Source: Streptomyces sp. NBC_01803 (lineage in GTDB: Bacteria; Actinomycetota; Actinomycetes; Streptomycetales; Streptomycetaceae). From it: a stretch of 64,000 bases of DNA. The stretch covers positions 1,657,001 to 1,721,000 of the forward strand of contig NZ_CP109073.1 of the NCBI RefSeq assembly GCF_035917415.1. The letters run 5' to 3'. Below the pieces are notes generated by a model. The model saw nothing but the letters and a program-made list of their open reading frames with translations, made no database searches and was not told where the DNA came from. Every line of letters begins with the position of its first letter. The first letter of the stretch is position 1. The translations under genes and the position numbers were made by a program. Positions 14,651 through 21,096 of the stretch are shown here, one piece after another.

Positions 14651-15517
14651 TCAGCCCTGCTCGGCGGGGGCTTCCGCGACATCGGCGGCGGGAGCGGCCT
14701 GCTCCTCGGCCGGCTGCTCGGCCGACTGCTCCTCGGCCTTGGCTTCCGCGCCCACCAGGAGCTCGCGCTCCCACTCGGGCAGCGGCTCGCCGGCCGGCTT
14801 CTCGCCGTCCTTCGCCTCGGGGGCACCGGACCGGGCGATGAGGCCCTCGGCGACGCCGTCGGCGATCACACGGGTGAGCAGGGTGACCGAACGGATCGCG
14901 TCGTCGTTGCCCGGGATCTTGTAGTCCACCTCGTCCGGGTCGCAGTTCGTGTCGAGGATCGCGACGACCGGGATGTTGAGCTTGCGGGCCTCGCCGACGG
15001 CGATGTGCTCCTTCTTGGTGTCCACGATCCAGACGGCGCTCGGCACCTTCTGCATGTCGCGGATACCGCCCAGCGTCTTCTCCAGCTTCGCCTTCTCGCG
15101 GGAGAGGACGAGCAGCTCCTTCTTGGTGAGGCCGGAGGCGGCGACATCCTCGAAGTCGATCTGCTCCAGCTCCTTGAGGCGCTGCAGCCGCTTGTGCACG
15201 GTCGAGAAGTTGGTGAGCATGCCGCCCAGCCAGCGCTGGTTGACGTAGGGCATGCCGACCCGGGCCGCCTGCTCGGCGATCGCCTGCTGGGCCTGCTTCT
15301 TGGTGCCGACGAACATGACGGTGCCGCCGTGCGCGACCGTCTCCTTGACGAACTCGTAGGCGCGGTCGATGTACGACAGCGACTGGAGCAGGTCGATGAT
15401 GTAGATGCCGTTGCGCTCGGTGAAGATGAAGCGCTTCATCTTCGGGTTCCAACGACGGGTCTGATGCCCGAAGTGGACGCCGCTCTCCAGCAGCTCCCGC
15501 ATCGTGACGACGGCCAT
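14651..15517 (-). CDS. rpsB: 30S ribosomal protein S2
   Basis: A 288-residue S2 protein with start [19 protein letters not shown] at ATG 15517, then [10 protein letters not shown] and the conserved [12 protein letters not shown]. The last 45 or so residues are a Glu/Ala/Pro-rich low-complexity tail seen in actinomycete S2. It heads the rpsB-tsf-pyrH-frr series. In most actinobacteria the gene divergent from rpsB is an M23 peptidase; here it is yraN, which is one side of the proposed inversion. Confidence 0.96.
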
Positions 15518-15911
15518 GGCCGTTCTCCTTGCTGACGCTCGGTTGTCAGCGCCGGCCGGGTGGCCGACGCTCCTGACGCCCCTGCGCGCTGTACCGGGAA
15601 GCGCCTGCGCGGCAGACCGCTCCGTGGACCGAGGTGCGCGGCCACCGGGGCGCCGAGGCAGGAGCCGGGGCGCCGAGGTGGCGGGGCATGCGAGGTCGAT
15701 CCGGGACCCCGGATCGCCACCAGAAGTGTACGGGACCGGAACAGGGCCGGGCGACAGCCGACGGGCGGCATGACCCTTCCGTGGACACGCCCGCGTGTCC
15801 TGGCGTGCCACCCCGAACGGGTGACGGATTTTTCCACAATCCCCGGGTTGTCCACCAAGATCCACTTCGGCCCGGGCGATGCGTCACAGTCGGTGACGGA
15901 GGTGAGGTGCC
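15518..15911. other. Divergent rpsB / yraN intergenic region and left inversion junction
   Basis: A 394-base gap without a credible gene. The part next to rpsB contains GTCAGCG...CGCTCCTGAC-type inverted sequence (about 15546-15579) that could fold in the rpsB leader, where S2 autoregulatory elements are commonly found. The part next to yraN contains the motif copy at 15831-15855 and a good yraN ribosome-binding site (GGAGGTGAGG). In the usual gene order these two sides would belong to different intergenic regions. Confidence 0.5.
15831..15855 (+). repeat. Left arm of long-range inverted repeat at inversion junction
   Basis: TTTCCAC, four variable bases, then CCCGGGTTGTCCAC. The same 21 fixed positions occur on the opposite strand at 20704-20728. 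The pair flanks the yraN-to-M23 block. The TTGTCCAC element resembles the Streptomyces DnaA-box consensus TTGTCCACA with one mismatch. Confidence 0.75.
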
Positions 15912-16298
15912 ATGAATCAGCGAGGTGCGCTCGGCCGCTTCGGCGAGGACGTCGCGGTACGGCGGCTGAGGGACGCGGGGCTGACCGTCCTGGAGCGGAA
16001 CTGGAGATGCCGCGCGGGCGAGATCGACATCGTGGCCCAGGAGCGGGCCGCCGCCGGCCGGACGTTGGTGGTGTGCGAGGTGAAGACGCGCAGGGCCGGC
16101 CGGTTCCAGCATCCGATGGCGGCGGTGACGCCGCGCAAGGTGGAGCGGCTGCGCCGACTCGCCGAGTGGTGGCTGAGCGAGCGCTGGCTGGCGGTGTACG
16201 CGGCGCCGCCGCCCGGCGGCGTGCGGATCGACCTGGTCGGGGTGCTGCTGCCCGAGCGCGGTGCGCCGCTGGTCGAGCACGCGCGGGGGGTGGCGTGA
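15912..16298 (+). CDS. YraN family (UPF0102) endonuclease-like protein
   Basis: A 128-residue protein of the YraN/UPF0102 family, which has a restriction-endonuclease-like fold. Conserved blocks are [27 protein letters not shown] (with the metal-binding Asp/Glu pattern) and LVVCEVKTR. Its biochemical role is not settled; it commonly sits with yifB and dprA, as here, where its stop overlaps the yifB start by one base (TGATG). In most actinobacteria it runs in the same direction as DUF2469 and rpsB; here it is opposite to both. Confidence 0.92.
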
Positions 16299-17908
16299 TG
16301 GCCTTCGCCCGCACCTGCGCGGTGGCCCTGGTCGGGGTCGAGGGCGTGGTGGTCGAGGTCCAGGCCGATCTGGAGCCGGGGGTCGCGGCCTTCTCCCTGG
16401 TGGGACTGGCCGACAAGTCGCTGACCGAGAGCCGGGACCGGGTCAGGGCCGCCGTGATCAACTCCGGGGCCCAGTGGCCGCAGAAGAAGCTGACCGTCGG
16501 GCTGAGCCCGGCGGCGGTCCCCAAGTGCGGCAGCGGGTTCGACCTCGCGGTGGCGTGCAGCGTGCTGGCCGCCGCCGAGCGGATCGATCCGCAGGTGATC
16601 GCGGACGTGATGATGATCGGCGAGTTGGGGCTCGACGGGCGGGTCCGGCCGGTCCGGGGCGTGCTGCCCGCGGTGCTCACGGCGGCCGACGCGGGGTACC
16701 GGCAGGTGGTGGTGCCCGAGCAGGCCGCGGCCGAGGCCGCGCTGGTGCCCGAGATGGCCGTGCTCGGGGTGCGCAGCCTGCGGCAGTTGATCGCGGTGCT
16801 CGCCGACGAGCCCGTGCCCGAGGAGCCGCGGGACGAGGCGGGCGGCCCGGTCGCCGCGCCCGGCCCCGGTTGGGGGCTGCCGCAGCCGGCCGGCCTGTTC
16901 TTCCCGGTCGGCGGCGAGCACCCGCCCGATCTGGCGGAGGTCTCGGGTCAGCGGGTGGCCCGCCGGGCGCTGGAGGTGGCCGCCGCCGGACGGCACCACC
17001 TGCTTCTGAAGGGCGCTCCCGGCGCGGGAAAGACGATGCTGGCCGAGCGACTGCCCGGCCTGCTGCCGCCGCTGAGCAGACAGGAGTCCCTGGAGGTCAC
17101 GGCCGTGCACTCGGTGGGCGGCTCGCTGCCGCCGGGCCGCCCGCTGATCGACCGCCCGCCGTACTGCGCGCCGCACCACTCGGCGTCGATGGCGTCGCTC
17201 GTCGGCGGCGGCACCGGCCTGCCCCGGCCGGGAGCGGTGTCGCTGGCGCACCACGGGGTGCTGTTCCTGGACGAAGCGGCCGAGATGAGCGGTCAGGTGC
17301 TGGACGCGCTGCGGCAGCCGCTGGAGTCGGGCCACGTCGTGGTGGCCCGGGCGGCCGGGGTGATGCGGATGCCGGCCCGGGTGCTGCTGGTCCTCGCGAC
17401 GAACCCCTGTCCCTGCGGACGGCACGGCTCGCCCGCCGGGGACTGCGAGTGCCTGCCCAGCACCGTCCGGCGGTACCGGGCCAGGCTGTCGGGGCCGCTG
17501 CTGGACCGCATCGATCTGCGGGTGCCGGTGGAGCCGGTGAGCCGGGCCGAGCTGATCACCGGAGGCGGCGGCGGGGAGTCGACCGCCGTGGTGGCGGAGC
17601 GGGTGCGCGCCGCCCGCGAGCGCTCCCTCGCCCGGTACGCGCAGACCCCGTGGCGGACCAACGCGGAAGTGCCGGGGCACGAGCTGCGCACCCGGTGGTG
17701 CCCGGTGCCGGGCGCGCTGGCGCGGGCCGAGCAGGACATGGAGCGCGGGCTGCTCACCGCCCGGGGCCTGGACCGGGTGCTGCGGGTGGCCTGGTCGGTG
17801 GCCGATCTGGCCGGGCACGACCGGCCCACCGCCGCGGACGTGGACGCGGCGCTGGAGCTGCGCACCGGGCTGCGGCGTGGCGCGGGCGTCGCCGGGAGCC
17901 TGCCGTGA
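16298..17908 (+). CDS. YifB family Mg-chelatase-like AAA+ ATPase (ComM-like)
   Basis: A 536-residue ComM/YifB protein. The N-terminal about 190 residues form the ribosomal-S5-like/ChlI domain ([19 protein letters not shown] and [10 protein letters not shown]). The AAA+ core holds Walker [10 protein letters not shown] near residues 240-248 and Walker [11 protein letters not shown] Cys-rich insertion, NPCPCGRHG, and the C-terminal helical domain follow. In other bacteria ComM is a hexameric helicase that extends heteroduplex during integration of incoming DNA. That fits its overlap (GTGA) with dprA. Confidence 0.92.
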
Positions 17909-19080
17909 GCCGGGACGACGGCGGTCAGGAGGCCCGGCTGGCGCGGGCGGCGCTGGCCAGGATCGTGGAGCCGGGGGACGCGCTGGTGGGGCGGTGGCTG
18001 GCGCGGCTCGGCCCGGTGGCGACCTGGCGGGCGCTGCGGGAGGACGGTCCACCGCCGGAGGGCGCCTCGGCCGACCGGTGGGCGGGGCTGCGGCTGCGGG
18101 CCCGGCGTGCCCCGGCACCCGAGCGGGACCTGGAGCGGATCGCCCGGCTGGGCGGGCGCTTCGTGTGTCCGGGCGACCGGGAGTGGCCCAGCCAGCTCGA
18201 CGACCTGGGGGCGGCCCGGCCGGTCGGCCTGTGGGTGCGCGGCGCCTGCTCGCTGCGGTTTGTGTCGCTGCGCTCGGTCGCCCTGGTGGGGGCGCGCGCC
18301 TGCACCGACTACGGGACGCATGTGGCGGCCGAGCTGGGCACCGCGCTCGCCGAGCGCGGCTGGACGGTGGTCTCCGGAGCGGCGTACGGGGTCGACGGCG
18401 CGGCCCACCGGGGGGCCCTCGCGGTCGGCGGGTCCACGGTCGCGGTGCTGGCCTGCGGGGTCGATGTCTCCTATCCGGCGACCCATACGGACCTGCTGCG
18501 CCGCATCGCCGAGAGTGGGCTGCTGGTCGCCGAGCTGCCACCGGGCGACCACCCGACGCGCGCCCGGTTCGTCCAGCGGAACCGGGTGATCGCCGCGCTG
18601 ACCCGGGGCACGGTCGTGGTCGAGGCCGCGCGGCGCAGCGGCTCGCTGATCACCGCCCGGCACGCCGGGCGGCTGGGGAGACACCTGATGGCCGTGCCCG
18701 GGCCGGTGACGTCCGGGCTGTCGGCCGGGACGCACCGGCTGATCCGGGAAGAGGCCACGCTGGTCGGGGACGCGGCGGACGTCATCGAGCTCGTCGGGGA
18801 CATGGGAGACCTGGCGCGGGAGCCGGACGAGCCGGCGGTGCCCCGCGATCTGCTGGCCCCGCCGACGGGCGAGGTGCTCGACGCGCTGCCCGCCGACGGC
18901 GCGATCGCCGTGGAGGAGGTAGCGCGCGGCGCGTGCACCAGCCCGGCGGCGGCGCTGGCCAGGCTGCGGGAGCTGAGCTCCCTCGGGTTCGTCGAACGGG
19001 TGGGCGACCGCTGGCAGTTGTCCCGGGTCGGCCCCCGACACGCGGACGGCCCGGATGCCCGGGCGCACGCCGGCGCGTAA
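17905..19080 (+). CDS. dprA: DNA-processing protein DprA (Smf)
   Basis: A 391-residue DprA. The Rossmann-like DNA-binding core shows [39 protein letters not shown] and [17 protein letters not shown]-terminal winged-helix domain (about 320-375) is also present. DprA loads RecA on single-stranded DNA during transformation. Start GTG 17905 overlaps the yifB stop as GTGA. In this genus it is kept although natural competence is not known to be general, so it may serve other recombination. A 152-base gap separates it from whiG. Confidence 0.93.
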
Positions 19081-19232
19081 CACCACCGTGCGGGCAGCGG
19101 AACGTATCTGCGCATACCCAAGGGTGGCGCACATGCGCACCGCGATCCTGTTGTCACGCTACGCTCACAGGGTTCTGTCGCCAGAACTCCCAGCCCCGCA
19201 CGCACTCCCCGCAGAACGGCTCACAACGACGT

Positions 19233-20078
19233 ATGCCACAGCACTCCTCCGGGCCTCAGCACGCGGCTCCGGCAGCGCCGGCCGCGGCGGAGGGCGGCAC
19301 CACGGCCCCGGCCGCGCCCACCGCGCTCGACACGCTGTGGCGCTCGTACAAGGCCACCGGTGACGAGCGGCTGCGGGAGCAGCTCATCCTGCACTATTCC
19401 CCGTTGGTCAAATATGTGGCGGGCCGGGTCAGCGTCGGGCTGCCGCCCAATGTGGAGCAGGCCGACTTCGTCTCCTCCGGGGTGTTCGGCCTCATCGACG
19501 CGATCGAGAAGTTCGATCCCGAGCGGTCCATCAAGTTCGAGACCTATGCCATCACCCGCATCCGGGGCGCGATGATCGACGAGCTGCGCGCCCTGGACTG
19601 GATCCCCCGCTCGGTGCGGCAGAAGGCGCGAGCCATCGAGCGCGCCTACGCCACTCTGGAGGCGTCGCTTCGCCGCACGCCGTCGGAGCCCGAGGTCGCC
19701 GCCGAGCTGGGCGTCACCCTGGAGGAGCTGCACGGGGTCTTCAGCCAGCTGTCCCTGGCCAACGTGGTCGCGCTGGAGGAGCTGCTGCACGCCGGCGGAG
19801 AGGGCGGCGACCGGCTGAGCCTGATGGACACGCTGGAGGACACCGCGGCGGACGACCCGGTGGAGGTGGCCGAGGACCGCGAGCTGCGCCGGCTTCTGGC
19901 CCGCGCGGTGAACACGCTGCCCGAGCGGGAGAAGACGGTGGTGACGCTCTACTACTACGAGGGGCTCACGCTGGCCGAGATCGGCGAGGTGCTCGGGGTG
20001 ACCGAGAGCCGGGTCAGCCAGATCCACACCAAGTCGGTGCTCCAGCTCCGTGCGAAGCTCGCCGACGTCAACGGCTGA
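19233..20078 (+). CDS. whiG: RNA polymerase sigma factor WhiG
   Basis: A 281-residue FliA-type sigma-28 factor that in Streptomyces starts sporulation of aerial hyphae. After an Ala/Pro-rich N-terminus come region 2 ([33 protein letters not shown]), region 3 ([14 protein letters not shown]) and region 4 ([22 protein letters not shown], then [13 protein letters not shown]). ATG 19233 gives the usual WhiG length. It lies directly after dprA and ends tail to tail with the M23 gene, overlapping it by 11 bases. A separate promoter in 19081-19232 is likely but was not identified. Confidence 0.95.
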
Positions 20079-20652
20079 CCGGCACCGATCCGGTCCCCTC
20101 CGGCACCGGGACACCCTCGGTCGGCAGCAGCCGGGACGGCCCGGACCTCAGCAGGCCGGGTGCCAGCCGCGCGAGCGGATCGAGGTAGATCTCGCCACGC
20201 AGCAGCCCCCAGTGCAGACACGGCCCGGCGCAGTGGAACGGGCCGGCCGTCGCCACCGTGCCCACCACGTCGCCCGCCGCCACCTCGTCCCCCTGGGCCA
20301 CGGTGGCGCGCACCGGCTCCAGGGTGGTGCGCGGCGGCACTCCCTCACCCTGCTGACCCGCGAGCTCGATCGTGACCACCCCGCGCCCGGCCACCTCGCC
20401 GGCGAAGCTGACCCGCCCGGCGGCCGGCGCCACCACCGGCGCCCCCGCCTCGGTGGCCAGGTCCACGCCGCGGTGTCCGGCCGCCCAGGGGGCCGGGGGC
20501 GGATCCCAGAGGCGCGCGACCAGCGGCCGGGCGGCTCCGGCGGCGCCCGGAACCGGCCACGCCCCGAAGGCAGGCGCCGCGGAGCCGGGCTCGGACGGTC
20601 CGGCGGGCGCGGCGAGCAGCAGGATGGACAGCAAGGCGGTGAGAACGCTCAT
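20068..20652 (-). CDS. Secreted M23 (LytM-like) peptidase-domain protein
   Basis: A 194-residue exported protein: residues 1-16 are a short signal peptide ([16 protein letters not shown]) and the rest is one LytM domain. The first metal motif is present as [11 protein letters not shown]. The second, normally HxH, reads CLHWG, so the first histidine of that pair is a cysteine. It may bind metal differently or be a non-catalytic regulator of cell-wall hydrolysis. In other actinobacteria this gene is divergent from rpsB; here it lies next to DUF2469, on the right edge of the inverted block. Confidence 0.85.
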
Positions 20653-20703
20653 CCCCGCAGCCTGCCGGGCGCGGCCGGGCCGTGGCGCGCCGGCGCGAAA
20701 TCT

Positions 20704-20728
20704 GTGGACAACCCGGGAGCGGTGGAAA
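20704..20728 (-). repeat. Right arm of long-range inverted repeat at inversion junction
   Basis: On the plus strand this reads GTGGACAACCCGGG, four bases, GTGGAAA: the reverse complement of 15831-15855 at 21 of 25 positions, with a perfect 14-base core at 20704-20717. On the minus strand it contains a perfect TTGTCCACA, the Streptomyces-type DnaA box. It lies in the 108-base gap between the M23 and DUF2469 genes. Confidence 0.75.
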
Positions 20729-20760
20729 CAGCGGCCCCCCGATCGGGTGAAACAGCTCGC

Positions 20761-21096
20761 TCAGGAGCTCCGCCCGCCGCCAAAGCCCGAATCCTCCGGC
20801 AGATCGAGCTCGCTGCGGTTGAGCTCCTCAATGTTGACGTCCTTGAAGGTCAGCACCCGCACCTGCTTGACGAAGCGGGCCGGCCGGTACATGTCCCACA
20901 CCCAGGCATCGGCCATGGAGACTTCGAAGAAGACCTCACCCTGCACCGAGTGCACCTGCATCTCGTAATCGTTGGTGAGATAGAAACGCCGCTCGGTCTC
21001 GATCACATAAGTGAACAACCCGACCACGTCCCGGTACTCCCGGTAGAGCTTCAGCTCCATCTCGGTCTCGTACTTTTCGAGGTCCTCGGCACTCAT
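20761..21096 (-). CDS. DUF2469 family protein
   Basis: A 111-residue small, acidic protein conserved in actinobacteria, beginning MSAEDLEKYETEMELKLYRE with ATG 21096. It contains GLFTYVIETERRFYLTN and AWVWDMYRPARFV. Function is unknown; an upstream ATG at 21129 in the same frame is less likely because it overlaps the end of sipZ. It closes the rplS-sip gene series. In the usual order the next gene on this strand would be yraN. Confidence 0.9.
   Translation of the reverse strand: MSAEDLEKYETEMELKLYREYRDVVGLFTYVIETERRFYLTNDYEMQVHSVQGEVFFEVSMADAWVWDMYRPARFVKQVRVLTFKDVNIEELNRSELDLPEDSGFGGGRSS

Follow-up and report, generated by a model that had tools for sequence, protein, structure and literature searches.

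In bacterial competence, comEA and comEC serve in transport, dprA and the ComM-like yifB in recombination, and the Tad system supplies the pilus. To our knowledge, natural DNA uptake by Streptomyces is not a settled matter, and we know of no demonstration of competence in this genus. In Micrococcus luteus, the comEC and tad loci are required for transformation (PMC4322843), a screen for mutants in comEA/EC expression has been described (PMC8467076), and the upstream competence cascade is stated to be still unidentified, with the regulation of competence in actinobacteria poorly understood (PMC12849477), according to the portions of these three reports that were available. A second group of relevant sequences are the DnaA boxes: the available excerpts list TTGTCCACA as a high-affinity DnaA box of S. 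coelicolor (PMC4285127) and state that E. coli DnaA prefers boxes that are 2–3 bp apart (PMC11317965). The present work concerns a stretch of 64,000 nucleotides from Streptomyces sp. NBC_01803 (NZ_CP109073.1, positions 1,657,001 to 1,721,000; hereafter the window), in which a block comprising yraN, yifB, dprA, whiG and a gene for an M23 peptidase (M23) is inverted and carries at both ends the same composite element of two DnaA-box-like sequences (hereafter the element). The explanation that we regard as the best, and as probable when taken whole, combines one inversion of the block, recombination between the elements at its ends and the use of these elements as a shared operator. The inversion by itself is an ordinary, clade-defining rearrangement, and the elements at its ends matter more.

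The source chromosome is a single contig of 5.85 Mb and its nearest named relatives, as judged by yifB, are species of Streptomyces. The original prediction, made from the window alone, placed rpsB, M23, DUF2469 and the sip genes on the minus strand and yraN-yifB-dprA-whiG on the plus strand, the latter genes hence being opposed to rpsB and DUF2469, and proposed that flipping the block would restore the customary order; gene calls and family scans agree with these strands, and inverting ~15.81–20.75 kb does recover the usual Streptomyces order at both ends. The orientation of the block was scored by tblastn in 101 loci (80 from named Streptomyces around yifB, 20 from further genomes, and the window) from the strand of DUF2469 relative to that of yifB, leaving out one locus (L099) on whose stretch DUF2469 was not found. 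DUF2469 opposes yifB in 17 of the 100 scored loci and shares its strand in 83, 7 of which belong to the outgroup; four of the 100 are second copies of named contigs, without which there are 16 flipped and 80 usual loci. The usual Streptomyces order is DUF2469-yraN-yifB-dprA-whiG-M23-rpsB, and M23 faces away from rpsB in the 59 unflipped loci whose contig extends that far. A draw of 199 genomes from the genus, 99 of them scorable (a yifB and an rpsB match listed for the same contig and no more than 40 kb apart), yielded 94 usual and 5 flipped loci; one genome (G121, L266) was given no state, its rpsB being on a separate contig.

The flipped state is shared by S. specialis, S. harbinensis, S. 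avicenniae, S. hoynatensis, the strains SBT349 and MP131-18 and the single-contig genome G289 (L089), the relatives on which misassembly is excluded, and it is also found in S. radicis, S. hainanensis (right end only) and the strains 8K308, NBRC 109706, 7-21 and YIM 98790. The idea that the flip is an assembly error of the window genome has thus been refuted and keeps practically no probability: the state recurs in many assemblies, and the 16 distinct flipped loci (counting the window) belong to different species and separate records. In a tree of 82 rows, built from six concatenated proteins by a quick method without bootstrap and leaving out 19 of the 101 loci (the duplicate L090, and the remainder with fewer than 5 of the 6 genes), the 15 flipped rows form one clade, all rows of which are flipped, with a value of 97 in the Shimodaira–Hasegawa-like approximate likelihood ratio test (SH-aLRT); for the 14 flipped rows other than the long-branched L088 the SH-aLRT value is 90. 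The tree tool counted two changes of state, one of which is the mislabelled L099 (its rpsB and yifB share a strand), so that one remains. All seven loci of the order outgroup, which represent one family, have yraN-whiG in the usual direction. The monophyly of the flipped rows and the usual direction in the outgroup point to one derived event, and it is near certain that a single inversion of the ~4.9 kb block yraN-yifB-dprA-whiG-M23 took place in the ancestor of one Streptomyces clade. The reverse polarity, with the flipped order ancestral and the usual order derived, could appeal to the stem of the flipped clade, which arises from the unresolved base of the genus tree; the outgroup, which is from another family, speaks against it in 7 of 7 loci, and we have rejected it as exceedingly improbable.

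It is hence confirmed that the inversion is derived, old and clade-wide, and not peculiar to the window genome. What had been noted as a flip is one relative to most of the genus, whereas the close relatives share the state of the window. The usual order on which that claim was based holds for Streptomyces (83/100 loci, the 7 of the outgroup included; 94/99 in the genus draw); its divergence of M23 from rpsB is, in the loci covered, specific to Streptomyces, since M23 and rpsB share a strand in all 7 outgroup loci and facing away is therefore not general in the order. No paper on a Streptomyces inversion involving whiG and rpsB was found in the open-licence literature.

The breakpoints can be confined by sequences that stayed with their genes. 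The junction intervals are 15518–15911 and 20653–20760. The rpsB promoter motif GTACACT is present in all 15 flipped loci, at 206–228 nt before rpsB, and in all 57 unflipped ones, at 150–231 nt (these and the following marker counts leave out the duplicates L090, L093, L096 and L098 and the seven outgroup loci). The rpsB promoter is therefore one that stayed with rpsB, and the suggestion that the inversion had parted the rpsB and M23 promoters is right in that the two genes no longer face apart, but the rpsB promoter itself is unbroken. Among loci with the element, the motif AAGATC behind the boxes has remained beside yraN in 10 of 14 flipped and 54 of 66 unflipped ones. As GTACACT stays with rpsB and AAGATC with yraN, the left breakpoint lies between ~15.74 and 15.86 kb; the right one lies between M23 and the DUF2469 stop, at 20.65–20.76 kb. 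Both breakpoint intervals include a copy of the region's longest inverted repeat (44 nt; 15812–15855 with 20704–20747). After the flip, yraN is back to back with rpsB, and M23 lies 108 nt downstream of DUF2469 on the same strand. The dnaA gene is at 3.20 Mb in the window genome, and we take oriC to be beside it; from this position yraN-whiG would now meet the replication fork head-on in this genome. The inverted repeat at the ends of the block was absent from the original prediction, and we judge it the more interesting part of the locus.

The core of the element is TTNTCCACA-N8-GTTNTCCAC, i.e. two DnaA-box-like 9-mers that are 9 bp apart and oriented toward the gene, to which the consensus adds TCACnCGnnnGGGTGACgGAG immediately upstream of the box pair (the GGGTGAC arm). 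The boxes take the forms TTNTCCACA and TTNTCCAC, with a variable third base and, in the second box, a variable ninth. Species of the usual state carry the same element before yraN and, inverted, before M23. A gene was scored as having the element when a match with at most 3 mismatches in the 16 fixed positions pointed at it from its upstream window (500 nt; 1400 for comEA and 350 for comFC, whose matched starts lie at differing distances), the same four duplicates being dropped. The element is thus found before yraN in 81 of 95 loci and before M23 in 61 of 80, and upstream of none of the control genes (DUF2469, 0/96; tsf, 0/77; rplS, 0/84; whiG, 0/91; dprA, 0/94). Pairs on the opposite strand gave 0 matches at the five tested target loci, and in every group the reversed-read pattern gave 0 and the dinucleotide shuffles 0.0. 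The windows of yifB (60/97) and of rpsB (70/79, opposite strand) contain, as expected, the neighbouring yraN and M23 copies, and no box pair was found within 500 nt ahead of whiG in 91 loci. Conservation is concentrated in the boxes and the arm, the spacer is variable and the orientation is constant across species; both copies were found in 45 unflipped loci, and their mean identity there is 32/50, the best being 42/50. With its upstream position, fixed orientation, variable spacer and arms that are alike between unrelated loci, the element looks like an operator.

The same element is present before other genes of DNA uptake and of the pilus. Searches starting from the proteins of comEA, comFC and ssd considered the best 30 of 58, 59 and 60 matching genomes, respectively; 29 of 30 comEA loci and 28 of 30 ssd loci have the element ahead of the gene. 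The sole comEA miss has its upstream region beyond the contig, and the first box at ssd is mostly ATATTCACA. For comFC, a perfect TTNTCCACA is present within 100 nt ahead of the matched start in 26 of 30 genomes, none pointing away, with no such box in five control groups; the same 100-nt window gives 0 for comEA and ssd, where the boxes are mostly farther from the matched start. Four exact comFC sites were found motif-first.

Within the window genome the element occurs at 7 places with at most 2 mismatches (reversed control 0), and five of these are at yraN, M23, comEA-comEC (L120), an RcpC/CpaB-like gene beside mscL (L119) and ssd (L122), the CpaE-like gene of actinobacteria, which presumably heads the Tad locus; one of the remaining two is at the start of parA. 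Exact matches are present in 72 of 101 genus genomes, at 0–8 copies per genome, and the reversed-read control is 0 throughout. There are at least 150 exact sites in the genus; of the 150 listed, 124 were classed by gene neighbourhood, and 26, which lie beside yifB, DUF2469 or rpsB, were placed by eye from their coordinates (24 yraN, 2 M23). Among the matches listed, 79 of 150 are at comEA, yraN, M23, RcpC-like, ssd or comFC (53/124 plus the 26). A wider set of 137 exact sites, which adds to the 124 another 9 in two other families and 4 in L265 and L266 (two loci used for gene order), has 25 at comEA (5 via the neighbouring degV), 14 at yraN, 8 at RcpC-like/mscL, 5 at M23, 4 at comFC, 3 at ssd/tad and 78 elsewhere; several groups of other sites, the Tad pilin-like gene and comFC were named by eye, and comFC also has a phosphoribosyltransferase match. 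The GGGTGAC arm, which is outside the search pattern, accompanies 45 of 53 target sites and 12 of 71 others, with a Fisher p of 2e-14 that is optimistic, the arm having been noticed at these same loci before testing; in the 137-site set the numbers are 49/59 and 13/78. The genomes are related and their counts not independent, hence the weight rests on the likeness between different loci.

A number of further sites deserve mention in their own right. The RcpC/CpaB-like SAF-domain gene beside mscL (L119:5081, G000:C1:2535080) has the exact element with its arm, and the arm is present in 8 of 8 sites of this class. Sixteen exact pairs lie by a DUF2252-like/azoreductase/HxlR-type cluster (named by eye; L113, L116, L155, L175, L243 and others), 15 of them without GGGTGAC. 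The SMI1, DUF2252/azoreductase, M24/ABC and response-regulator sites, which mostly do not have this arm, were set aside as members of a regulon. An exact box pair precedes an ssb paralogue (L219:1773, in G022:C64); as this is the only examined locus with a box pair ahead of ssb, ssb was rejected as a general target. In one genome of another family of the order (G013, 5.1 Mb; L124–L131), 9 pairs match a looser pattern, two of them at ssd and at a Tad pilin-like gene (by eye).

From sequence comparison, the element is likely the operator of a hitherto undescribed competence/Tad regulon. Such an operator would serve a regulon for DNA uptake, pilus formation and opening of the cell wall, the last of which the M23 peptidase could perform, and would be bound by DnaA or by a protein with DnaA-box-like specificity. 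DnaA is one candidate binder because TTGTCCACA is a listed S. coelicolor box, the 9-bp spacing is unlike that preferred in E. coli, and the arms beside the boxes suggest a further protein. The stronger form of this proposal, that Streptomyces has a conserved and coordinate competence regulon (comEA-comEC, yifB with dprA, Tad, the RcpC-like gene and M23) under one composite operator of two DnaA boxes, is put forward tentatively, as a reading whose chances we place slightly below even. Were it true, uptake of DNA would be coupled to DnaA or to an activator that reads DnaA boxes. In the open-licence literature, as covered by titles and the beginnings of abstracts, no operator common to comEA, dprA and tad in Streptomyces is named. 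If comEA, the dprA operon and the ssd/Tad locus shared one operator, natural uptake in Streptomyces could be put to a direct test.

Several observations weigh against a competence operator of this kind. No exact match is present in 29 of the 101 genus genomes, and 71 of the 150 listed sites are at other genes (DUF2252/azoreductase, SMI1, M24/ABC, response regulator and others). None of the 30 comFC regions (best 30 of 59) has the element at its exact spacing, and comFC was therefore kept out of the core set, although it has boxes at other spacings. Outside the genus, one of 7 yraN regions of family f3 has the element with at most 2 mismatches, the other six having 5–7, and the region round DUF2469 in family f2 has no match better than 4 mismatches. 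Deletion of comEA/comEC left DNA uptake by Kitasatospora L-forms unchanged and walled cells took up none, the role of these genes in Kitasatospora being described as unknown in the available part of that report (PMC9500057).

Some of the same facts would fit the view that the pairs are ordinary DnaA sites for DnaA titration or the timing of replication, their tie to competence genes being incidental. The listing of TTGTCCACA as a DnaA box of S. coelicolor, the 71 listed sites elsewhere and a conserved pair that several genomes have in the parA start or next to it are all in keeping with it. An earlier study has reportedly dealt with DnaA-box clusters in S. coelicolor. Under this view it would be less easy to account for the positions conserved at functionally linked genes, the absence of any away-pointing pair at the five tested target loci and the enrichment of the GGGTGAC arm at com, tad, yraN, M23 and RcpC sites; the boxes are 9 bp apart and do not form an E. 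coli-type double box, for which 2–3 bp is the preferred distance (PMC11317965, in the part available). We hence consider this view unlikely. The pair in or beside the parA start (L135, L138, L145, L149, L154; also L123:3932) could be a DnaA-related site of a different type. The reading of the element not as an operator but as a dispersed repeat, of the repetitive extragenic palindrome or miniature inverted-repeat transposable element type, has in its favor the several places per genome; with 0–8 exact copies in each of the 101 genomes, an orientation kept across species at yraN, M23, comEA and ssd, and conservation centred on the boxes and arm, it is very improbable.

The two elements also offer a likely cause of the flip. 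The inverted element is present at both breakpoints, pointing inward, in unflipped genomes as well. Two facing operators 4.9 kb apart would form a ready inverted repeat, between which a crossover could have inverted the block and left yraN and M23 each with an operator copy of its own, so that the regulation of both would be kept; the head-on orientation of yraN-whiG to the fork would have been tolerated. We consider recombination between the two elements the best explanation of the inversion. If both this and the regulon are true, the inverted block represents a natural experiment, in which recombination between operators rearranged a regulon without breaking it. Three facts tell against this origin: the copies, with the identities given above, are short and imperfect for RecA; the M23 side has no leader motif that followed its gene (AAGATC in 0 of 12 flipped and 11 of 49 unflipped loci); and the 44-nt repeat tops the list of the region's 116 inverted pairs yet is not outstanding among them. 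The repeat by itself was accordingly rejected as evidence, as near-equal pairs occur by chance, and it was conservation across species and loci that gave it meaning.

Illegitimate recombination or a mobile element since lost could instead have inverted the block, with the end repeat incidental. The shortness and imperfection of the copies would agree with this, as would the occurrence of one flip only, though 45 unflipped loci carry both copies. At a mean identity of 32/50, however, recombination between the elements would be rare, which fits one event; the breakpoints are confined to the short stretch from the rpsB promoter to the AAGATC of yraN and, at the other end, to the 108 nt that separate M23 from the DUF2469 stop, of which 14 nt lie beyond the repeat, and no transposase or recombinase is present among the families of the block's genes. 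We therefore hold an origin of this other kind to be rather unlikely. The block was likewise considered as a phase-variable invertible element; against this, no recombinase is among its genes and the flipped state is the only one among the clade's 15 rows.

The features of the locus are summarized in Table 1.

Table 1. Genes and elements of the inverted block and its flanks (positions in the window)
Feature	Position	Strand	Remarks	Basis
rpsB	14651–15517	-	left flank, not in block	gene call and family scan
rpsB promoter region	15518–15760	-	unmoved by inversion; GTACACT ~212 nt ahead of rpsB (median of flipped loci)	
Left element copy	15812–15855	+	GGGTGAC arm and box pair 15830–15855; reads into yraN; left end of block	
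yraN (UPF0102)	15912–16298	+		gene call and family scan
yifB, Mg-chelatase-type AAA+ ATPase	16298–17908	+		gene call and family scan
dprA	17905–19080	+		gene call and family scan
whiG, sporulation sigma factor	19233–20078	+		gene call and family scan
M23 peptidase gene	20068–20652	-	convergent with whiG, overlaps its end	gene call and family scan
Right element copy	20704–20747	-	box pair 20704–20729 (2 mismatches) and upstream arm; reads into M23; right end of block	
DUF2469	20761–21096	-	right flank, not in block	gene call and family scan

The yifB family is taken here to be the ComM family. The overlap of M23 with whiG is 11 nt in the window, where the gene that most relatives carry between whiG and M23 is missing. 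The whiG-M23 gap measures 620–1805 nt in the 59 unflipped loci, and the gene within it, as named by eye, is TetR/AcrR-like in L009 (13785–14450) and L022 (13928–14750) and acetyltransferase-like in L016 (13830–14520). This gap is gone in S. specialis, 7-21, YIM 98790 and the window, where the two genes are 10 nt apart or overlap.

In comparison with known systems, the block resembles phase-variable invertible segments in being a segment between inverted repeats with a reversed orientation, and differs from them in having no recombinase among its genes and in being fixed in a clade. The 9-mer TTNTCCACA resembles a DnaA box; the 9-bp spacing, the GGGTGAC arm and, at yraN, the downstream AAGATC are unlike DnaA-regulated promoters, and, in a further difference from DnaA boxes, com/tad-type loci, yraN and M23 make up over half of the element's listed targets. 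Relative to the canonical Streptomyces locus, the window has the same genes, the element at both ends and the same rpsB promoter, and is distinguished by the orientation of the block and the loss of the gene in the whiG-M23 gap. The likeness to the comEA/EC and tad loci of Micrococcus luteus lies in the functional gene set (comEA, comEC, dprA and tad), and that to the Bacillus ComK boxes in the placing of one short operator before comE-type, dprA-type and pilus genes, the sequence of the operator being unrelated.

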